In this document: piece after piece, positions 3,463-35,494 of the stretch
How the letters are laid out: each line of letters begins with the position of its first letter
Position numbering within the stretch: position 1 is the first letter of the stretch
Source: Spirochaetales bacterium
Lineage (GTDB): Bacteria; Spirochaetota; Spirochaetia; DSM-27196; SLST01
Reading direction: 5' to 3'
Assembly (NCBI GenBank): GCA_007127335.1
Contig: SKZO01000068.1
Span: 1-35,865 of the forward strand
DNA length: 35,865 nt
Notes under the pieces: model-generated
What the model saw: the letters and a program-made list of their open reading frames with translations, nothing else
Told to the model about the DNA's origin: nothing
Databases searched by the model: none
Position numbers and translations under genes: made by a program

Positions 3463-4326
3463 CTACACGTGCGCGTCGTACGCGTCCACGATACGTCTGA
3501 TGTAGCTCCGCTGTTCGAGAGCCCAGTATTCGGTCGAGAAGATCTCGACCTCGATGAATCCGGTGAACCCGGCCGCCTCGACCCAGCCGCGGATCTCCGG
3601 TATGTCGATGCACCCCTCGCCCATCAGCCCGCGATCGGTCAGCAGATCACGCGTCGGGGTCCTCCAGTCGCAGACATGGAAGGCGAGAATCCGCTCACCG
3701 GCGCGATCGATCTCGGCCTCCAGCGCCGGGTCGAACCAGAGGTGGTAGACGTCGACGGCCACTCCGAGCGCAGCCGCGTCGATCTCCTCGCAGATCCGGT
3801 TCGCGGTAGCCAGGTCGGTAATCGCGCTGCGCGCATCAGCGTACATGGGGTGGAGCGGTTCGATCGCGAGTTTGACGCCAAGCTCCGCGGCAAGCGGCAG
3901 CACCGCTTCGATGCCGCGACGAATCTGGTCGCGTGCGACCGGCAAGGATACGGCAGGATCGGCCCCGCAGACGAGAACGACGAGCGGTGCGCCGAGCTCG
4001 GCTGCCTCCCGGACGGCCGCGCGGTTCTCCTCGATCGCGACGATCCGCTCCTCCTCGTCGGCGTTCACGAAGAACCCGCCGCGACAGAGCGAGACGATCT
4101 CGAGGCCGGCCTTCCGGATTCGCTCGCCGTCGGCGTGGACGTTGCGGCCGACGAGCGCGTCGCGCCAGACCGTGATGCCGCGAACGCCCGCGCGGACGTA
4201 CTCGTCAACGGCGACCTCGAGCGGCAACGGGCGCGTCGTCGCGGTGTGTACGCACAGCCGATCGCGCTCCGGCGGGTGCCTCCCGGTTTCGCCGAGCTTG
4301 TCCTGCGTGCGGTGCACCGCGCTCAT
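3463..4326 (-). CDS. Sugar phosphate isomerase/epimerase (xylose isomerase-like TIM barrel)
   Basis: [19 protein letters not shown]-type motif, [43 protein letters not shown]; start overlaps upstream stop (4323-4326). Confidence 0.85.
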
Positions 4327-5738
4327 GTCGTCCTCCCTGTGTCGAAGAAGCGCTGCGGCGCTCCGCCCTCGGCGAGCCGCTTCACCATGAGCCCGAGCTC
4401 CATCAGGTGGTAGTCGCCCCACATCGCCGACTCGCCGTTCGGTACGGTCTGCCCCGAGGCTACGAAGTCCCAGCCGTTCGGACGGTGATAGACGGTGTGC
4501 AGCAGGATGCCCTCGTGCCCGTCGGCGAGCGAGAGATACGGCTCGGCGAGCAGGGTCCGTGCGACCGAGAGGCCGGCCTGCGTATAGCGAGTCGCGGCCT
4601 GCTCGTCGGACTTCGAACCGGCGTTCCGCGCGAGGTAACGCCCCAGCCGCAGGAGCCCCTGCGCGCCGATCGCGGCGGCCGAGCTGTCGACCGGCTCGTA
4701 CTCGTTGAACGGGTCGGCCGGCCGCTCGAGGTAGTCGCATAGATGTACAAGCCCCGGCGCGCCGGTGTCCCAGTAGGGAACGCCGTCCGTGGGAGTATAC
4801 TCGATGAAGAAATCGGCCACGGCCCGCGCGATCTCGAGGTACCGGGACCGAATCTCGGCGAGACTATCCGCGCTGAACCCGCTCGATCGCACGTCGGCGT
4901 CGCAGAGCGTCTCGAGCCACTCGAGCTGCTCGGGGTAGCCGGCGAGGATCCACGCGAGCCCGCGGGTCCACGTAGTGAACGGCGAGTACCCCTGCTGCGT
5001 CGACGGACAGCGGTACGCGCCGGAGTCGACGTTGAAGATGCTCTCGTGCACCACCCGGCCCCGCACGTCGTAGGCGTCACGCCCCTCCCCGAAATAGACA
5101 TTGTACCGGCCGGTCGTCTCCGCATGCGCGAACAGGCGTCCGAGCAGCGATATCCGCTCGTCCTGCTCGCCCATGAGCACGTGGCCGAGCTGGTGCGCGA
5201 GCGCGAGCGAGCGCATGCTGCGGATCGTGTCCGAAAAGAGGCTGTGCCGACCGTTGAAGCTGCACACGTACCCGAGGCCTCCGGGAAGCGAGGTCCACCG
5301 GCTCGCTTGAGCGGCCCCCGACAGTTTGAGCGCGAGCTCGTAAAAGCTCCGCTGCCACTCGTCCTCCGGAATCGTCCCCTCGCTCATCATCCGCAGGAGG
5401 TTCCCGTACGTGCTCACGTTGTTGAAACCGTGGTCGTGAACCCCCAGGTGCGTGAGGTGAGGCGCCATCTTCGTCACGGTCTCGCGTCGGCCGTACTCCA
5501 GATACTCCTCGTCTCCCGTTGCCTCGAAGAGCAGGAGCGCGCATCCGTACTGAAACCCCTGGGTCCACTCGGTCCAGCCGCGGGTCGTGTACCTGCCGGC
5601 CTCGGTGAACACCGGCGTGCCGTCCGCTTCGTTCCAGCGTCTGCGCAACGCCCCGATGCACCTGCCTGCAACGCCCCAGAGCGACTCGAGGCCGGGCACC
5701 AGGTCGGGCGCCGAAACGTTCGCGTCAATCGCAATCAT
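4323..5738 (-). CDS. GH88-like unsaturated glucuronyl hydrolase
   Basis: HDHGFNNVSTYGNLLRM, FSDTIRSM, WTRGLAWILAGY, TDGVPYWDTGAP, DSSAAAIGAQGLLRL, NGESAMWGDYHLMELGL: consistent with GH88/105 (alpha/alpha)6 fold motifs. Confidence 0.75.
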   Translation of the reverse strand: MIAIDANVSAPDLVPGLESLWGVAGRCIGALRRRWNEADGTPVFTEAGRYTTRGWTEWTQGFQYGCALLLFEATGDEEYLEYGRRETVTKMAPHLTHLGVHDHGFNNVSTYGNLLRMMSEGTIPEDEWQRSFYELALKLSGAAQASRWTSLPGGLGYVCSFNGRHSLFSDTIRSMRSLALAHQLGHVLMGEQDERISLLGRLFAHAETTGRYNVYFGEGRDAYDVRGRVVHESIFNVDSGAYRCPSTQQGYSPFTTWTRGLAWILAGYPEQLEWLETLCDADVRSSGFSADSLAEIRSRYLEIARAVADFFIEYTPTDGVPYWDTGAPGLVHLCDYLERPADPFNEYEPVDSSAAAIGAQGLLRLGRYLARNAGSKSDEQAATRYTQAGLSVARTLLAEPYLSLADGHEGILLHTVYHRPNGWDFVASGQTVPNGESAMWGDYHLMELGLMVKRLAEGGAPQRFFDTGRTT

Positions 5739-5747
5739 CAGTTCCTC

Positions 5748-6518
5748 CTACAATCGTGGGATATGGAGCCCGCCGTCGGTATAGATGACCGACCCGGGTG
5801 AAAAGTCGAGGTGCCCGTCCATGATCGAGCGCACAACCCTGCCGGTGTCCTCAGGGAATCCCCACCGCCCCTGCGGCACGAGTCCATCCGCGATGAGTCG
5901 ATCGTACTTGTCGGTGACACCCGCGGTCATGTCGGTTTTCGTGATGCCCGGGCGCACCTCGTAGACGAAGATCCCTTCGGGGGCGAGACGTGCGGCGAAG
6001 AGCGCGGCGCCCATGGCCAGGCCCGCCTTGCTCACGCAGTACTCGCCGCGCGAGGTCGAGACCATCGTCGCACTGATCGATGTGACAAAGACGATGCGTT
6101 GCGTCTGTTGCCGCGGCGCATCGCGCTCGAGCCAGCGTCGGGCCACGAGTTGCGTCAGGAAATACGGGCCGCTGAGATTGACCCGCATCACCTCATTGAA
6201 GATCTCTTCGTCGGCCGCGATGATGTCGTCCCGCCTTCGGGGGGCGATGCCGGCATTGTTGACAAGACCGTCTATCGCGCCGTAGGCGGCGACTACCTCG
6301 TTCACGAGGCGCGCGCGATCATCGGCGTTCGAGATATCTGCCTGAAACACGCTGCACGCGGCACCGTCGGCAGCCGATTCGCACTCCTTCGCGGTGGCAT
6401 GAGCAGCCTCGCGATTCCCGTTGTAGTGAATCGCAACAACCTTTCCCGCGCGTGCGAGCTCGAGCGCGATGCCGCGTCCAATGCCGCGGCCTGCGCCGGT
6501 GACCAGTATCGCTCCCAT
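5748..6518 (-). CDS. Short-chain dehydrogenase/reductase (FabG/KduD-like)
   Basis: TGAGRGIGRGIALELARAG, NNAG, S...YCVSKAG catalytic motif, C-terminal VIYTDGGLHIPRL; GGAGGAG RBS. Confidence 0.9.
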   Translation of the reverse strand: MGAILVTGAGRGIGRGIALELARAGKVVAIHYNGNREAAHATAKECESAADGAACSVFQADISNADDRARLVNEVVAAYGAIDGLVNNAGIAPRRRDDIIAADEEIFNEVMRVNLSGPYFLTQLVARRWLERDAPRQQTQRIVFVTSISATMVSTSRGEYCVSKAGLAMGAALFAARLAPEGIFVYEVRPGITKTDMTAGVTDKYDRLIADGLVPQGRWGFPEDTGRVVRSIMDGHLDFSPGSVIYTDGGLHIPRL

Positions 6519-26930: not shown

Positions 26931-28271
26931 CTATACCAGATAGACCCCGTCGGCCACCAGCGCGTTGCGCAGCGTCGCGTAGGGCAGGTCCCGGCTGGTG
27001 CAGCCGGCGGCGCTGCAGAGTGCCGCTGCCGTGCCCACCGCCTGCCCCTGGGCCATGCACGATACCGTGTTCCGTGTAGACATGTGGGCCTCGTGATCCG
27101 AGGTGATGAGCATGCCCGCGACGAAGAGGTTTTCAAGACCCTTTGGGACCAGCGCGCGGTACGGTATGCCGTAATCCCCGCCATCCCTGATCTTGATCCG
27201 GGGGGCGTAGTCGTGGAATCCGTAGGTCGCGACGTCGTCGGGAAAGTGTCGACCTTCTACAACGTCGGAGGCGGTGAGGTCATAGTCACAGACGATGCAG
27301 CGGCCTCTGCGGATACAGAGCGACGGGCTCGTCCTGGCGATGTACGCCTTCGCGGCTCCCGGAATCCACTCGCGGATCAGCCTGATCGCGCGGTACTGCC
27401 GGCGTCGCAGCTCGAGCTCGGCGTGAGACGCAACGCTGCGATCCGTCGGACTCGCTGATGCCTGGACGTTGATCTTGACGAACATGAAGTAATCGTCGTG
27501 AACGGTCGTCACCACGATCGCCATGCCGATGGCGTCGGCCTCCCGCAGGAAGGCTTCGGGCAGACGCCTGCGGTTGGCGTCAAGCCGCACGATTTTTCCA
27601 GCCTCTCCGCTGCGGAAGCCTTCGGCATACTGCGCGAGCGCTCCATGCTCCTCGAGCCAGCCGTGGAAGGCCTCCACGTCCACACCGCCAACGCCCATTG
27701 AGTTGGCTACCGGGTAATCGTTGGGTTCGCTGAACTGCGCGCCGGCGGCTGCCGCGAGGTCGCCGTACCCGGTCGCATCAATGCAGGCCGACGCCGCGAT
27801 CTGCTCGGCCCCGCACCGGCTCTGCGTCCGGACCGACGTGATCGATCCCCGGCTGGTCGCCGCACCGGTCACCGTCGTGTTCATCCAGAGCTCGACGCCG
27901 GCTTCGTCGAGCATGTCGAACGCGACGAGCTTGTAGAGCTCCGTGTCCACGGCGGTGCATACCGAATCGTAGTCGTAGCCCCGGGACATCTCGGCGTGCC
28001 CGCTCGTGCCCCCGACAGCGGCAAGCCTCTCCACGATCTCAGCCGGGATGCCCCGGACGATCTGACGCTTTTCGACCCCGGGAAACGCCTTCCAGAGATT
28101 GTAGTAGCTGTGGAGCGCGGTACCGCCCTCCACGACCAGCCCCCCCGGATACCCCTTGGCCTCCACGAGTATGGTCTTTGCGCCGGATCGCGCCGCGGCG
28201 AGGGCCGCAACGACCCCCGCTGTTCCGCCTCCGGCAACGACGACGTCACAGTCGTGAGCCGAGCCTTCCAT
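26931..28271 (-). CDS. FAD-dependent oxidoreductase
   Basis: CDVVVAGGGTAGVVAALAAARSGAKTILVEAKGYPGGLVVEGG; CIDATGYGDLAAAAGA; C-terminal NLFVAGMLITSDHEAHMSTRNTVSCMAQGQAVGTAAAL. Confidence 0.9.
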   Translation of the reverse strand: MEGSAHDCDVVVAGGGTAGVVAALAAARSGAKTILVEAKGYPGGLVVEGGTALHSYYNLWKAFPGVEKRQIVRGIPAEIVERLAAVGGTSGHAEMSRGYDYDSVCTAVDTELYKLVAFDMLDEAGVELWMNTTVTGAATSRGSITSVRTQSRCGAEQIAASACIDATGYGDLAAAAGAQFSEPNDYPVANSMGVGGVDVEAFHGWLEEHGALAQYAEGFRSGEAGKIVRLDANRRRLPEAFLREADAIGMAIVVTTVHDDYFMFVKINVQASASPTDRSVASHAELELRRRQYRAIRLIREWIPGAAKAYIARTSPSLCIRRGRCIVCDYDLTASDVVEGRHFPDDVATYGFHDYAPRIKIRDGGDYGIPYRALVPKGLENLFVAGMLITSDHEAHMSTRNTVSCMAQGQAVGTAAALCSAAGCTSRDLPYATLRNALVADGVYLV

Positions 28272-28822
28272 CAGTTGTCCGCCGGGTTCAGGATCTTCTG
28301 GAGACTCTGGCTGATCGTCTTCGCCGCCTTCTCGGCATCGGTCTTCGGCACACGCGCATCCTGCCAGAGGCTCTTCGCGAAAAACGCGCCCACGGTCTGG
28401 AGAATGTCCGGTTCCTTGAACACGACGTAGGCGAAGTTCTCCCCTTTCGGTTGGAGGATCGTGAAGCTCGTGTACGTGACCACCGGCTCCTTGCCCATCA
28501 TGATCCTGTCCTGCCGCTTGGTGACCAGCGAGTCCACTTCCTTGAATCTGTACGGAATCGCGTGCCCGCGATCGCGCATCGCGGGCTCCATGTGCTTACG
28601 ACTGTAGCTTGCCGGCTCAACGACGACGAACTGCTTGAAGCCGTCCGCCTGGAAGACAATGCCCTCTTCGTTACGATAGATGTCCTTCACATTGTTGTAC
28701 GATGTGACTTCGTACTTCGTGTAGGTCGTTTCTTCGTCGAAGAACGATGTGATGATGAGCCCGCCCTCGGTCGGGAGCTCACTTGCCATGTATGCCTTGA
28801 ACAGGTCCTTGATCTGCGCCAT
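28271..28822 (-). CDS. Conserved hypothetical protein
   Basis: MAQIKDLFKAYMASELPTEGGLIITSFFDEETTYTKYEVTSYNNVKDIYRNEEGIVFQADGFKQF...; good promoter and GGAGGGT RBS upstream. Confidence 0.75.
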   Translation of the reverse strand: MAQIKDLFKAYMASELPTEGGLIITSFFDEETTYTKYEVTSYNNVKDIYRNEEGIVFQADGFKQFVVVEPASYSRKHMEPAMRDRGHAIPYRFKEVDSLVTKRQDRIMMGKEPVVTYTSFTILQPKGENFAYVVFKEPDILQTVGAFFAKSLWQDARVPKTDAEKAAKTISQSLQKILNPADN

Positions 28823-28841
28823 GTACCCTCCGAATACCTCC

Positions 28842-28870
28842 ACTATATCTCGCGTTGTCGCCTACGTCAA
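28842..28870 (-). promoter_or_regulatory. Predicted sigma70-type promoter (TTGACG-17-TATAGT) for the 28271-28822 gene
   Basis: -10 TATAGT at 28842-28847, -35 TTGACG at 28865-28870, 17-bp spacer. Confidence 0.65.
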
Positions 28871-28884
28871 AACACTTTCCCCCG

Positions 28885-28913
28885 TTGAGAAAGTCTGCGG
28901 CAATTATTACACT
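28885..28913 (+). promoter_or_regulatory. Predicted promoter (TTGAGA-17-TACACT) for the J-domain gene
   Basis: -35 TTGAGA 28885-28890, -10 TACACT 28908-28913, 17-bp spacer, ATG at 28923. Confidence 0.55.
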
Positions 28914-28922
28914 TGGCGGGCT

Positions 28923-29747
28923 ATGGCGCCGCATACCGGCCGAGCCTTCATCTCCGCGGAGAAGGCACTCGAGCTCTTCAAGATTGGCCCTGCGGCGTCT
29001 CTCCGCGACCTCAATGCCGCCTATAGACGACTCGTTCGACGCTATCACCCGGACTACAACCCGGATCGCCTCGAATGGGCCCATACCTCTATGGTCAAGA
29101 TCAATGCTGCCTACGACGTAGCTGTCGAGCACCTCGCGGCACTCCGGTATGAGGAGGTTCAGGCCCATCTGGACAAGGAGATCCGCGCGCATGACGAGTT
29201 CAACGCACTCTTCTCGAACGTTGCCAACAGGGTCCTTGACGGCGTGTTCACCTACTATCAGTACGGCCTTGAAAACCCGCATCAGCGCAGGTCAGGGACC
29301 CCCCGTATCCGCTACCGCAGCGCGGTACGCCGTATCACGGAGGCCGTGACCCAGCTCGAACGCCTGCGCGTACCGAACCCGGTGGACGGAGAGACGCTCG
29401 AGGTCTTCACCGGCTTCGCACGCGCATTTCTCCAGTGCATGCAGATCGACCGCACACTCGCACCGACGAGCTCGCGTGAGGAGCACGGGGCGCATCAGCG
29501 ATACCGCGATGGAAGTCGTGCGCTCGACGCGGCAATCCGGCGCGCGTTCTTCCGCAACGAGCTGTCACCACGCGGCGAGCTCGCCTCACCCCAGAGCCTT
29601 GCGCTCAGCCTGAACGAGTACATGTCCGTGGTCACGAACTATCAGAAATCGAGCTGGGTCACTGAGACGGCCATGAAACTATGTCTGCTCGACGCCTTTC
29701 AGGCGCTGCTGGCAATCTCGGAGCGGGTCCCGGAACTCGGCCTGTAG
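28923..29747 (+). CDS. N-terminal J-domain (DnaJ-like) protein
   Basis: ALELFKIGPAASLRDLNAAYRRLVRRYHPDYNPDRLEWAHTSMVKINAAYDVAVEHL with HPD motif; about 200 aa of unassigned C-terminal sequence. Confidence 0.82.
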   Translation: MAPHTGRAFISAEKALELFKIGPAASLRDLNAAYRRLVRRYHPDYNPDRLEWAHTSMVKINAAYDVAVEHLAALRYEEVQAHLDKEIRAHDEFNALFSNVANRVLDGVFTYYQYGLENPHQRRSGTPRIRYRSAVRRITEAVTQLERLRVPNPVDGETLEVFTGFARAFLQCMQIDRTLAPTSSREEHGAHQRYRDGSRALDAAIRRAFFRNELSPRGELASPQSLALSLNEYMSVVTNYQKSSWVTETAMKLCLLDAFQALLAISERVPELGL

Positions 29748-29807: not shown

Positions 29808-32465
29808 TCACTGGTGCGCGACGGTCTGCCTCGCGGCCGCCTCAGCGGCAACGTTCATCCTGGCTACCGCGTGCTTCGCGATCGGTATCCCATACGCCGA
29901 ACAGCTGGTGTAGTTCAGGCCGATGCTTCGCACGTAGGCGATGTTCTCCGGCTCCGCACCGTGCTCTCCGCAGAGGCCCATGGATATGTCCGGCCGTGTC
30001 AGGCGACCTCGTTCAGCAGCGATGTGAATGAGCTCCTTCACCTGCTCTCCGAGTACCTTGAAGGGGTTGGTCTCCAGCAGGTCGAACTCGTTATAGTCGC
30101 TGAAGAAGCTGTTGAAATCGTCCCTTGAGAGCCCGTTCGTCGTCTGGGTCAGATCGTTCGTCCCGAAGCTGAAGAACTCCGCGTACTGGGCTATACTGTC
30201 TGCGTTCAGTGCCGCGGCCGGAAGCTCGATCATCGTGCCGACCTTGTAGTCGACCGATCTCGCCTTGAACTTCTTCTTGACCTTCTCCTCAATCTCCTTG
30301 ATTCCGACGATTGCCTTCCCTTCGATCCTTTTGCCGTTGCGAATCGTCTTCATCTCATGCGCGCTCATGATGAGCGGGATCATGATCTCCGGTCTGGGGT
30401 TCTTCTTCTCGGCCCTGAGCTTGTAGGCAGCCTCGAAAATCGCCTCCACCTGCATGTTGTAGATCTCGGGGTAGCTGATCGCAACGCGGATGCCACGGTG
30501 ACCGAGCATCGGGTTGAACTCCTTCAACAGATCGCACCGGCTGCGTACCTCGGCCTCGCTCACTTTGGGATACTGCTTGCGGAAATGCCTGATGAACTCG
30601 TCCATGCTCTCACGCGTGTGCGGCAGGAACTCGTGCAACGGTGCATCGAGCAGCCGGATCGTGACCGGCAGGCCGTCCATGATTTTCAGCAGGTCGTAGA
30701 AGTCCTTGACCTGGTACTTCTTGAGGTCGACGAGCGCCTTCTCCCGGTCCTCTTTGGTACCCGCGATGATCATCGTTCTGAACTTGAGGATCCTGTCCTC
30801 GGCGAAGAACATGTGCTCGGTTCGGCAGAGGCCAATGCCGTGCGCGTGGAACTTCCTCGCGAGCTCAGCGTCCTTCGGCTGATCTCCGTTGCAGTGAACG
30901 TCGAAATCCGGCGTGATGTGCGTCTCGCAGATGTCGAGGAACTCGAGCAGACCGCTTCCCTCGGGACTCGGCTTCGTGAGCTCACCCCGCCCGAAATAGA
31001 CGGTAGGCTCCTCGTAGTACGGCACGTTCACGGTGATGTAGTCGCCCTGCTTGATCGTCTTGCGCCCGATCTTCATCTGCTTGTCGCCCCAGGTGATGTC
31101 GGGCTTCACAAGCGCCACTTTCCCGAGACTCCGGGCGACGACCGGGGCATGACTCGCGTACCCGCCTTCGCTCGAGAGGACACCGGTGGCGACCTCGATG
31201 GCCTTTACGTCTTCGGCAAAGGTGGCCGGCATCGCGAGGATGAAGTTCGCGTCCTCGTCCTTCTGCACGGCCATACGATACGCCTTGATCAGGTCCTCGG
31301 TGTCGAAGTAGACCCGCCCGATGGCGGCGCCTACGGCCCCGGCAATACCCCCGGACTGGCTCCCGGCGTCCTTGACCGAACGAACATCGAGAGCAGGATG
31401 GAGCAACTCGCTGAGCCGGCCGGGCTTGATCGTCTCTATGATGTACTTGTCGTCAATGACCTTCTTCTTGTGCAGATCGAGCAGGGTCTTCAGTTCCGCC
31501 TGCGCGCTCTTGTTGATCACCTCCATCTGGTCGATGACCCACAGCTTACCCTGTTCTATGGTGAACCGGACTCGTCTGATCTCCCGGAAGTGAGCCTCGA
31601 GCTCCGATCCGATCGTGTCGAGCTCGGCCTTGACGGCTTTTGCAATCTTCGAGAGTGGCTTGCCGGAGACCTCGGTGTCGTCGAAGGACCCTTCGAAGAA
31701 CTCGCCCGTGATGCCGCTCTCCCCCGTGATGATATCCCGGGTATGAAAATACCCGAACAGACTGTTCTTCCCGAAGTTACCGAACACCATCGTCTGAACG
31801 AGAATCGCCGAGTCGCTCGAGCTCTGGTTGATCTGGAAGAGTTTGTGGTACGTCTTCAGGACATAGCGGAACTGCTCGTAACAGTCGGTGAACACCTCGT
31901 TCGGGAAGACATCGCCGTGCTTCTCGACGGCCCCGAGCACCGCCTTCCGGCTGTCGGTCTTCTCCGCGGCATCATGGAACTCTTTCCTCGCCTTCTCCAG
32001 CTTCGTCTTGCGACGCGCCGGAACGCCCTCGGTCAGCAGTTCCATCTCAGCGATGTGAGCGAGCGCATTGCCGAACTCGTGGTAGGCAAACTGCTCCCCG
32101 ACATATGCGGCGAACCCATCGACCGTCTGGGTAGACAGCCCGATATTGTGGATGGTCGAGAAGGTGTTCACCATGTTCAGCATGGGACTCTCCACGACCT
32201 TGATGAGCAATGGATTCGAGCTGCTGTTGAACTCCTTGAGGAAGATCGTCTCCATATCGGAGAGCGGATCCTTGAGCATATCAAAGACACCCGCCTCGTC
32301 GGCGGCAATCTGGTTCAACGTATCATTGGTGACGATGAACCCCGGGGAAATGGGCGCCCCGAGCGACGCGAGCTCCATGATGCGCCGACCGCGACTGCCG
32401 ACCACCTCAAGAATCTCCGGATCACTGAGATACTCAGTACTGCTAAACGAGTAATACTCCTGCAT
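29808..32465 (-). CDS. Pyruvate phosphate dikinase-like protein with degenerate ATP-grasp domain
   Basis: GGYASHAPVVARSLGKVALV (phosphohistidine), LCRTEHMFFAEDRI, IRLLDAPLHEFLPHT, GHRGIRVAISYPEIYNMQ, MIELPAAALNADSIAQYAEFFSFGTNDLTQTTNGLSRDD, MGLCGEHGAEPENI; N-terminal third divergent from canonical PPDK. Confidence 0.9.
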   Translation of the reverse strand: MQEYYSFSSTEYLSDPEILEVVGSRGRRIMELASLGAPISPGFIVTNDTLNQIAADEAGVFDMLKDPLSDMETIFLKEFNSSSNPLLIKVVESPMLNMVNTFSTIHNIGLSTQTVDGFAAYVGEQFAYHEFGNALAHIAEMELLTEGVPARRKTKLEKARKEFHDAAEKTDSRKAVLGAVEKHGDVFPNEVFTDCYEQFRYVLKTYHKLFQINQSSSDSAILVQTMVFGNFGKNSLFGYFHTRDIITGESGITGEFFEGSFDDTEVSGKPLSKIAKAVKAELDTIGSELEAHFREIRRVRFTIEQGKLWVIDQMEVINKSAQAELKTLLDLHKKKVIDDKYIIETIKPGRLSELLHPALDVRSVKDAGSQSGGIAGAVGAAIGRVYFDTEDLIKAYRMAVQKDEDANFILAMPATFAEDVKAIEVATGVLSSEGGYASHAPVVARSLGKVALVKPDITWGDKQMKIGRKTIKQGDYITVNVPYYEEPTVYFGRGELTKPSPEGSGLLEFLDICETHITPDFDVHCNGDQPKDAELARKFHAHGIGLCRTEHMFFAEDRILKFRTMIIAGTKEDREKALVDLKKYQVKDFYDLLKIMDGLPVTIRLLDAPLHEFLPHTRESMDEFIRHFRKQYPKVSEAEVRSRCDLLKEFNPMLGHRGIRVAISYPEIYNMQVEAIFEAAYKLRAEKKNPRPEIMIPLIMSAHEMKTIRNGKRIEGKAIVGIKEIEEKVKKKFKARSVDYKVGTMIELPAAALNADSIAQYAEFFSFGTNDLTQTTNGLSRDDFNSFFSDYNEFDLLETNPFKVLGEQVKELIHIAAERGRLTRPDISMGLCGEHGAEPENIAYVRSIGLNYTSCSAYGIPIAKHAVARMNVAAEAAARQTVAHQ

Positions 32466-32551: not shown

Positions 32552-33514
32552 TCAGAATAGGTCCAGCACCTGGTCGTAGCCGCCTTTCAGGAACGCCTCG
32601 AATCGGGGGCTCGCCCCCTCATAGAGGTAGCGCTGCAGCTTGCGGACGTCCTTGATCTCATCGCCCGCGACGCTGAACATGATGGGAACACCATGCTTGA
32701 CCTTACCCCACTTGAAAAGTGAGTTGATATCGTTGATCCGTTCGTTCTCGTACCATATAAGCACATCGAGCCCGGGGTACTTTGCCTGGTAACTGGCAAT
32801 AACCTTCTTCCAGGCTTCGACGTTCCCGTTATGGAAGAGCTCGTTCGTCACGACGACCGAGTACTTCGGTGTTATGCGCTTTCTGCTGCCCGCACGCTGG
32901 GTCGGCGCATCCACAGCTACGGCAGCCGAGGCCGCCGGTGCTGCCTGAGTCTCGTCAAAACTGGGCACCGCGGCAGCGGGCTTCAGGACCCGCCGATTCC
33001 CACGGTATGCGGAATCGTCCTTGACGCTCTTACCGTACAGAACCTTCAGAACGTCGTCGGTCGCTCGTTCAAGTGTCTTCTGATCGAGGGACCCGGTTGC
33101 CGGACCCACCAGCATAAGGAAATACTCGTCCTTCACCAGCGGTAGCACGCCGTCCCAATGAGCCGGGTTCGCCGGGTTGATGACGTACAGCCCAGCCTGG
33201 GGATGGTAGTAACAGAGAATGACGTGAACCTTGCCCCACTTCGACACGGCCTCGATCACCGGCTGAACGTCCTCGACGGTCTTCTCAAGGTTGTGAGAGC
33301 GGGTAACGTAGCCGAGTTTGTCAACCAGAAGTGCGTTCAGAATGGCACGGACCTGGTACCGCTCGAGCGCTCCATCCTCGAGCGCCTCATTGAGGACGTC
33401 GGCGAGGTTATACCCCTCGCCGACATCTTCCGCGAACCCATTGACGCTTTTGAAGTGGCGCAGGGCGGTGTTGAAGCCCGCCCTGCGCGAAAGAAGATTC
33501 AGTGTGTTTTCCAT
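32552..33514 (-). CDS. Conserved hypothetical protein encoded immediately after cfpA
   Basis: 320 aa, two globular regions joined by an Ala/Pro-rich linker (KPAAAVPSFDETQAAPAASAAVAVDAPTQRAGSRKR); ATG lies 3 nt after the cfpA stop codon. Confidence 0.82.
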   Translation of the reverse strand: MENTLNLLSRRAGFNTALRHFKSVNGFAEDVGEGYNLADVLNEALEDGALERYQVRAILNALLVDKLGYVTRSHNLEKTVEDVQPVIEAVSKWGKVHVILCYYHPQAGLYVINPANPAHWDGVLPLVKDEYFLMLVGPATGSLDQKTLERATDDVLKVLYGKSVKDDSAYRGNRRVLKPAAAVPSFDETQAAPAASAAVAVDAPTQRAGSRKRITPKYSVVVTNELFHNGNVEAWKKVIASYQAKYPGLDVLIWYENERINDINSLFKWGKVKHGVPIMFSVAGDEIKDVRKLQRYLYEGASPRFEAFLKGGYDQVLDLF

Positions 33515-33517
33515 ACC

Positions 33518-35494
33518 CTACAGTTCTTGGAGATCATCGGAAGACTTCCGGCGGCGGCGTGACGGCGTCACGTCGGCCTTCCCTTTCACTCCGGCATCAC
33601 TCGACTCCTCGTCATCGGTTGCCGACTCGAAGTGCTGAGCCTCCGGCACCTGGGCGGTGATATCATCGTCCACGGTGGTCATGAAGCTCTGGTTGAGGTC
33701 CTCACGAACCGTGCTGCGGCGGCGCTTGAAGGTTGCGAAGGCCGCATCCTGGAAGCCTTTGGAGACACCGTGCAGGAACTCGTTCAGCACGTTCGCCATA
33801 CCGCTGAGCGTGAACTTCTTTCGCTTGATGCTGGTGATGTCCACGTCGAGAATGAGGCCCGGCTGGATGTGGTACGGGTTGATCAGATAGTCGAACTCCT
33901 CGAACTCCCGCCGCAGGAAGTCGATCCGCTTGTCGACCTCGACTCGCTCCTTGGGATTGAGGTGTCCGTATACGGTCGCAACTGTCTCCTGCGAACGGTT
34001 GAGCATCTTTTTCAGAAGAGCCTTTTCGTGCAGGTACGTGTTGTTGAGCCGCTCGACATCCGTCTCTTCGGCCTTGATCCGCAGGATCTCGTTCCAGGTC
34101 TTCTCGATCTCCTCGTAGAGCGGCTCACCGCTTTCCTGCTTCGCACGCCGAACCCGGCCGCGCATCCGCTTCGCCACGTCATCGAAATCGTTGACCCGCA
34201 TACCGCTCTTGTTGCTGTCGTACAGTGCGCGAACAACGTCCCAGGCATGGGTGATCTCGTTCTTGAACGCTTCCATCTGCTTGTCGTAGGCGTCCCGCTC
34301 CTTCAGCAGCTGTTCCTGATCATAGTACTTCAGCCGCATCTGGTATCGTTCATCCGGCAGGTTTTTGACGTCCGTGTCCTCGTACTCGCGCACGATGAGC
34401 TCGCGAGCATTCTTCAGGTTCTCGATGTACTGGTAGCCCATCTTCGAGGTGTCGAGAATCGAGGTAAGCGAGTTGATCGCCGTGTTGAAGCCACGGTTAC
34501 GGATGTTCTCCGCATCGATGATCTTCTTGATGTTCTCACGGATATTCAGCGGATCGAACTCCTTGGGATCGATCTCCGCCCGCAGGCCCTCGATCTTCTC
34601 GACGAGCTCCTTCGCCATGAAGGTGTACCGCTTTGAGCTCTCGTCCTCCGCATCGTCGTCCGTGTAGTTGGGAACGCGCTTGATCTTCTCGAAGATCATC
34701 TCGCTGTCGGTCAGCTCATCCTTGCCCTCATCAACGAGCTCATCCTGATAGCGTTCGACTTCCTGCTCGATCAGCGTCGTGATCGTCTTGGAGATCTGAT
34801 CCTTGATGAGGAACTCGACGGTGACCTGATACTGGAAGATCGGGCTGATGAGCTCCGAGTCGAGGATATTGACCGAGAGCTTGACGTCGCTGACGTTCTT
34901 CGGCTTGTGAAGGTTGTCCTTGAACGCACACTTCACGATCGAGTACGCGTTTTCGCCCCGGATGAAGGCACCGACGTCGGCCTTCTGCCGCAGCAGCGCA
35001 TTGGTGTCGTTCTCCAGATCGTTCATCCCTCGCTGGATGTGTCCCTGGAGATGGCCGTACATATTGACCATCGACTTCTCGATCTCTCCGGTGTTGAACT
35101 TGTCGGCGCCACCGATCTGATCGAGCATCTCGGCGATCTCTTTGGGCGAGTAGCGCGCAAGGGCCTTGGACTCTTCCTTGTCGATGAAGTTACGAACCTT
35201 CTTCACCATCTCATCTTCAGAGGTAACGATGTACCGGTTGAACATGTTCTGGTAATTCTGGTTGTAGTAGTTGTAGAGCTTTTCCTTCAACCCACCCATG
35301 ACGTCGAGCTGCTCGAGCACTTCGTTCGGCAGCTTGACCTGAATGTCCTTGAGGATGTTTTCTACCTCTTCAGCGATGACCTGCTTGTACTCGTCCTTCT
35401 GGCTTCGCCCTTCCTGGGCCAGACTGTTGCGTGATCCAACAGCTGACGGCTTGCGAGGGTGAAATACGTTTGGACTCCTCGGGATATCGGACAT
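33518..35494 (-). CDS. cfpA: Cytoplasmic filament protein A (CfpA)
   Basis: 658 aa, highly charged, coiled-coil-rich; recognised as treponemal CfpA ([66 protein letters not shown]...); RBS AGGAAGGAG; same neighbours as recalled for T. pallidum cfpA. Confidence 0.87.

Follow-up and report, generated by a model that had tools for sequence, protein, structure and literature searches.

The window analysed here is a stretch of 35,865 nucleotides of contig SKZO01000068.1 (assembly GCA_007127335.1), from a Spirochaetales bacterium. It carries a gene related to pyruvate phosphate dikinase (PPDK), which we designate ppdkL. The ORF lies on the minus strand (32465..29808), a detail that an earlier reading made from the sequence only had not given, and the genes mid and cfpA are both located upstream of it on the same strand. 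The features are listed below, with residues in the PPDK reference numbered as in C. symbiosum PPDK.

29808..32465, minus strand: ppdkL, 885 aa, a PPDK-fold protein in which the ATP site is lost and the His and PEP domains are kept
31506..32465, minus strand: N-terminal ATP-grasp-derived domain of ppdkL, residues 1-320, rewired, pLDDT about 90 in most blocks
32391..32393, minus strand: codon for ppdkL R25, equivalent of the catalytic K22 of C. symbiosum PPDK, Arg in 99/99 orthologs
32193..32195, minus strand: codon for ppdkL V91, equivalent of R92, Val/Ile in 99/99 orthologs
31566..31568, minus strand: codon for ppdkL R300, equivalent of E323, Lys/Arg in 96/99 orthologs
30996..31358, minus strand: swivelling phospho-His domain of ppdkL, about residues 370-490
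31149..31151, minus strand: codon for ppdkL H439, equivalent of H455, invariant in 100/100 orthologs
29853..30908, minus strand: PEP/pyruvate barrel of ppdkL, residues 520-871, with R548, R604, E747, N770 and C832 invariant
32552..33514, minus strand: mid, 320 aa, homolog of TDE0843, third module member and candidate phosphate acceptor
32831..32833, minus strand: codon for mid H228, in NELFHNGNVEAWK, invariant in 77/77 homologs
33518..35494, minus strand: cfpA, cytoplasmic filament protein A, 658 aa (NF040882, 1094.8 bits)

Convergent with ppdkL is a 332-aa ORF with a DnaJ domain (32 bits; window 28749-29747, plus strand), whose start codon is uncertain, and adjoining this is an uncharacterised ORF of 190 aa (window 28271-28843, minus strand).

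Pfam matches in ppdkL are the PEP barrel, at 232.8 bits, and the mobile His domain, at 37.6, while the score for PPDK_N is 19.8, below the cut-off of 27; the canonical PPDK of the same genome scores 184.7. With the PPDK family profile TIGR01828, ppdkL reaches 653, short of the cut-off (843), and the T. pallidum-like (608) and T. denticola-like (648) orthologs also fall below it. The profile for Enzyme I of the phosphotransferase system (PTS), TIGR01417, gives 115 bits, under its curated cut-off of 342. In a profile search the best solved relatives of ppdkL are PPDKs (E about 1e-141). The structure prediction is confident (mean pLDDT 89.7, pTM 0.85) and every one of its closest solved structures is a PPDK, although the alignment behind the model contained canonical PPDKs and the model is thereby biased towards that fold.

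The second, canonical PPDK that the sequence-only reading had proposed to search for is present in this genome (G000 C303, L008 5473..8127). All the ATP residues are present in it, and it scores 1369 with TIGR01828; the genome also encodes pyruvate kinase. In a phylogenetic tree the ppdkL orthologs form one deep clade apart from all canonical PPDKs, on a long branch with SH-aLRT support of 100; for this tree the program issued a long-branch warning. Such a long and fully supported branch rules out a recent origin of ppdkL by duplication of the PPDK that this spirochaete has. Two further loci of this genome (L006 975-4151 on C409 and L007 5715-8327 on C357) encode large proteins with PPDK_N (ATP-grasp) alone and no PEP domains.

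The residues of the ATP site were compared in two sets, one of 94 orthologs with 17 canonical spirochaete PPDKs as the reference, the other of 100 orthologs with a reference of 70 canonical PPDKs drawn from many phyla. The earlier manual pairing of K22 with R25, R92 with V91, D321 with R298 and E323 with R300 is reproduced by a profile alignment to C. symbiosum PPDK, and the loss of ATP-grasp residues in cfpA-linked homologs, by comparison with true PPDKs, proves to be family-wide in the alignments of about 100 orthologs. K22 is replaced by Arg and R92 by Val or Ile in 93/93 sequences of the first set, and both are retained in 17/17 canonical spirochaete PPDKs. The larger set of 100 orthologs gives Arg at K22 in 99/99, Val or Ile at R92 in 99/99 and Lys or Arg at E323 in 96/99, while K, R and E are conserved at these sites throughout the 70 canonical enzymes, of which the second copy of this genome is one. 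D321 is seldom kept (D in 2/94 orthologs). Two of the earlier assignments stand less firmly. An ungapped comparison does give Asp at Q335, as claimed, but there is an invariant Gln one residue further on, which MAFFT can align to Q335 and which the two family alignments place differently, so that this position is ambiguous. The window does have Met at R337, but Arg occupies this position in 41/94 orthologs in the 94-ortholog alignment. Because of this, and of the ambiguity near Q335, R337 is a weak marker.

There are also changes that the earlier reading had missed. In nearly all orthologs the lid is incomplete, with Cs 222-225 and neighbouring residues absent; S262 is replaced by Val or Ile, and R135 by Phe or Tyr. 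The old ATP site has in turn acquired the invariant residues R25, K89, S93 and R297, which implies that the N-domain has been rewired and held, and is not simply decaying. Mean identity among the orthologs is 0.41 for the N-domain versus 0.63 for the PEP domain, the reverse of the order in canonical spirochaete PPDKs (0.68 and 0.60 respectively). Since the changes in the ATP site are invariant across about 100 genomes, chance can be excluded as their cause, and the family-wide alignments likewise rule out an error of manual alignment. The existence of about 100 intact orthologs, among which the catalytic residues do not vary, rules out a lone pseudogene. It is concluded from these alignments that the ATP-binding site is lost, as judged by its residues, in every spirochaete ortholog examined.

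Two orthologs, from two families (L076 and L089), have an insertion of roughly 80 residues inside the N-domain that is not found in the others. One near-complete genome from the T. pallidum genus group has the ortholog split by a frameshift near residue 634 (L101/L221, G226:C1:2157444-2160055), which reflects either a pseudogene of recent origin or an error in sequencing.

The PEP side of the protein presents the opposite picture. All the motifs quoted earlier for the swivelling His, the PEP domain and the catalytic Cys are present in the ORF. In the set of 100 orthologs H455, R561, R617, E745, N768 and C831 are kept in every sequence that reaches them, and T453 of PPDK is replaced by Ser or Ala. 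The half-reaction in which PEP phosphorylates the His and pyruvate is released is common to PPDK and to PTS Enzyme I. The earlier proposal, that the protein is not a PPDK and keeps the PEP/His chemistry, therefore agrees with both the residues and the profile scores, with PEP exchange itself as a prediction.

The link to the filament gene was suggested earlier from operon placement, and it is real. Across 295 spirochaete genomes cfpA was found in 95 and the ppdkL ortholog in 94, and 93 of the 96 carriers have both (Fisher P = 1e-73, a value that ignores relatedness). A genus-level test inside families holding both states gives P = 1.2e-6. The usual order is cfpA, mid, ppdkL, with mid directly upstream of ppdkL in most genomes. 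In 68 genomes cfpA is just upstream of ppdkL, leaving a gap that would accommodate mid; another 12 have it 6-8 kb upstream on the same strand, and in 13 the two are unlinked or on other contigs. The pairing is thus usually adjacent and is kept even when unlinked; one assembly (G039) has all three genes, each on a contig of its own.

The three exceptions are as follows. One genome has the ortholog without cfpA (G247), and there mid is at the start of a contig, so that cfpA is missing because the contig end cuts it off. Two have cfpA without the ortholog. In G242 CfpA is divergent (about 40% identity) and mid and ppdkL are both absent, and G097 has cfpA and lacks both the other genes, possibly because of the assembly. 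The CfpA-like ORF of G242 (L222, 813 aa, G242:C1, about 3899-6337, minus strand) is flanked by the genes that flank mid-ppdkL in the genome G159, described below. Another genome (G249) has two full-length copies of cfpA, at G249:C1:845179-846993 and 2843679-2845493.

Published work on T. denticola places the two proteins together. In an envelope fraction, band 1 was identified as TDE0844, annotated as 'pyruvate phosphate dikinase', and band 3 as CfpA (TDE0842), both being among the major proteins of the fraction (PMC3931704); and TDE0842-0844 are jointly repressed in co-culture (PMC3914990). The ortholog adjoins cfpA in one of the genomes analysed here (G139, 2,843,201 bases), with a canonical PPDK 680 kb away. 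We take this genome to be T. denticola. Given this arrangement, and given that TDE0844 is numbered next to TDE0842, TDE0844 is the ppdkL ortholog and not the canonical PPDK. Co-fractionation with CfpA in the envelope is no proof of binding.

The N-domain has been removed naturally in one genus. A complete chromosome of 4,059,867 bases (G159), which is presumably that of T. primitia, so that we refer to the genus as T. primitia-like, has an ortholog of only 587 aa that starts after the ATP-grasp domain and has the His and PEP residues intact. Here mid is directly upstream of the shortened gene, without room for more between them. A second genome of the genus (G325) likewise lacks the N-domain, with a ppdkL of 548 aa and mid adjacent. 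Both proteins retain the His, the CRTEH, RLLDAPLHEF and ND motifs, and the Cys. From these two forms it follows that loss of the N-domain is compatible with retention of His, PEP domain and mid. The earlier idea that the protein exchanges phosphate between PEP and His only, as Enzyme I does, gains from this natural deletion; phosphorylation by PEP only is putative, its basis being the residues conserved. In a different genus there is a relative that also lacks the N-domain (L240, G301:C13), in which the GTND motif has become GGND and no mid was found in the 6 kb examined; it may represent change or loss carried one stage further. Orthologs of two other genomes (G300 and G342) appeared at first sight to be truncated at the N- or C-terminus, and both are cut by contig ends.

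The sequence-only reading left the phosphate acceptor open. There is now a candidate, mid, encoded between cfpA and ppdkL, at the level of fold similarity. The protein has no family match in Pfam or NCBIfam. In the model its invariant H228 is directly before a predicted helix (229-245), and His15 of HPr likewise precedes a helix. A Foldseek search with this model (pLDDT 71) placed HPr in about 35 of the best 50 PDB matches, with probability up to 0.97 and E of 0.067 or worse; the output does not locate the matching part, and both halves of mid are ordered beta-alpha-beta-beta-alpha-beta-alpha. Neither domain gave a PTS-HPr match in Pfam and PDB HMM searches. When mid was aligned to an HPr profile using hhalign, with 100 shuffled decoys, the score for the C-domain was equalled by 3/100, and that for the N-domain by 0/100 over only 19 columns. 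The scores are near decoy level, and homology of mid to HPr is not established by sequence using the Pfam and PDB HMMs or hhalign. A weak match to NusA (E 0.0023) did not recur with domain profiles. The model makes mid a lead as a putative HPr-like acceptor. Ordinary HPr, which is encoded in 72/73 of the module-bearing genomes, could be an alternative acceptor.

Comparison with known systems helps to place ppdkL. It shares with PPDK (C. symbiosum 1DIK/1KBL) the full-length three-domain fold, the phospho-His and the PEP/pyruvate barrel with every catalytic residue, and differs in the loss of ATP-grasp residues, lid segment and docking residues, in its separate deep clade, and in falling below the TIGR01828 and PPDK_N cut-offs. 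With PTS Enzyme I it would share a nucleotide-free chemistry, and the T. primitia-like form is cut down to the same His and PEP domains; however, its domain ancestry is reversed, being from PPDK, and it is without the helical HPr-binding subdomain of Enzyme I. VadK of M. tuberculosis (Rv1127c) is a documented PPDK relative that has turned to protein phosphotransfer, and is likewise a histidine phosphotransfer protein tied to neighbour genes (PMC13400623). It is a mirror image, in that VadK has ATP and His domains but no PEP domain, whereas ppdkL has apparently lost the use of ATP and kept PEP. Finally, the CfpA cytoplasmic filament of treponemes is the system to which the neighbour and constant companion of ppdkL belongs. 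It has been described as a single-protein structure (PMC3398590). In the literature found, which covers few subscription papers, mid and ppdkL are not described as filament parts, and earlier notice of the divergence is possible; the same literature gave no established partner or control of CfpA filaments.

Because the ATP site is lost, the PEP chemistry apparently kept and the gene co-inherited with CfpA, ppdkL probably serves the CfpA filament as a partner in phosphate transfer or sensing, and is probably not the glycolytic enzyme (PPDK) as which databases list it, T. pallidum included. More specifically, with a confidence a little above even, we favour the reading that it is an ATP-independent, PEP-dependent histidine kinase, derived from PPDK and acting like Enzyme I, which passes phosphate to a protein acceptor, the likeliest being mid at H228, and which forms a module with CfpA and mid. 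PEP would phosphorylate H439 with release of pyruvate, as expected from PPDK and Enzyme I chemistry, and phosphorylated ppdkL would then hand the phosphate to its acceptor, a step with less support. The CfpA filament, mid and ppdkL would be three parts of one module held together through spirochaete evolution. If mid is the acceptor, it would follow, speculatively, that the state or assembly of the filament is tied to the PEP/pyruvate ratio.

The main rival is a non-catalytic scaffold or sensor, in which the protein bridges, anchors or scaffolds the filament and binds PEP or pyruvate as a signal, with no phosphate transfer. Its prominence in the envelope fraction alongside CfpA (PMC3931704) and its abundant transcript in T. 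pallidum (PMC8525777) would suit such a role, and bridging and anchoring components of treponemal filaments have been reported, unnamed as far as the title shows (Izard et al. 2004, cited in PMC3398590). Catalytic residues can persist for ligand binding alone. However, the phospho-His, the general-acid Cys and all other catalytic residues are invariant in about 100 sequences, a pure ligand sensor has no need of the His, and the form without the N-domain keeps His and PEP domains; we regard this role as a serious possibility, though a minority one. A PEP-dependent phosphotransferase for a small molecule, with the rewired basic pocket of the N-domain binding a new acceptor in place of ATP, would explain why nearly all species keep this domain and its new basic residues (R25, K89, R297 and K/R300), and other PPDK relatives such as rifampin phosphotransferase have switched substrate. 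It is nevertheless improbable, given that one genus has lost the N-domain yet keeps mid and the His/PEP unit, and that ppdkL is tightly linked with a filament gene rather than with a metabolic pathway. Least probable is a still-working PPDK with its ATP-contact residues displaced in our alignments. The overall predicted fold, the invariant Gln one residue from Q335, the charge retained on replacing K22 by Arg and the lack of any other PPDK or pyruvate kinase in T. pallidum would fit it, but R92 is replaced by Val or Ile, E323 by Lys or Arg, and lid residues are missing throughout; the single mutants K22A and R337A (1jde, 2dik) were built to disable the ATP site; the present genome already has a canonical PPDK and pyruvate kinase; and one genus has deleted the ATP-grasp domain altogether.

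The consequences are most direct for T. pallidum. Two reported variants of TP0746, at nt 810772 and 811414 (PMC10013896), both fall inside the ortholog at 810749-813310 of a genome of 1,139,633 bases (G041), which identifies this genome as T. pallidum and the ortholog as TP0746. It has the degenerate residues R22, V92 and R323, and a search of the whole genome found no canonical PPDK and no pyruvate kinase. The genome does encode GTP-PEPCK (141081-142181) and oxaloacetate decarboxylase beta (66496-67560), so that a route from PEP through oxaloacetate to pyruvate is possible. A relative (G018) has the reverse pattern, with pyruvate kinase and PPDK found, and GTP-PEPCK and oxaloacetate decarboxylase beta absent. 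One paper states that TP0746 forms pyruvate and ATP from PEP, AMP and PPi (PMC10013896), another takes the abundance of its transcript as a sign of pyruvate metabolism (PMC8525777), and a complete set of glycolysis enzymes has been claimed for the organism (PMC7512555). The annotation as a glycolytic PPDK is doubtful, because only the ppdkL form is present, without canonical PPDK or pyruvate kinase.

A more extended proposal is that a PTS-like phosphorelay acts on a bacterial cytoskeleton, with phosphate passing from PEP to H439 of ppdkL and on to H228 in an HPr-like domain of mid, so that CfpA is controlled by the PEP/pyruvate ratio; the T. pallidum 'PPDK' would then be a relay protein, and pyruvate would be made via PEPCK and oxaloacetate decarboxylase. 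Taken as a whole this is tentative and rather doubtful. The published assignment of TP0746 (PMC10013896, PMC8525777) is called into question; if the protein is unable to use nucleotides, glycolysis in T. pallidum must end by other means. Although CfpA filaments help to define the treponemes, they are poorly understood, and this analysis names two co-inherited partners for them, mid and ppdkL.
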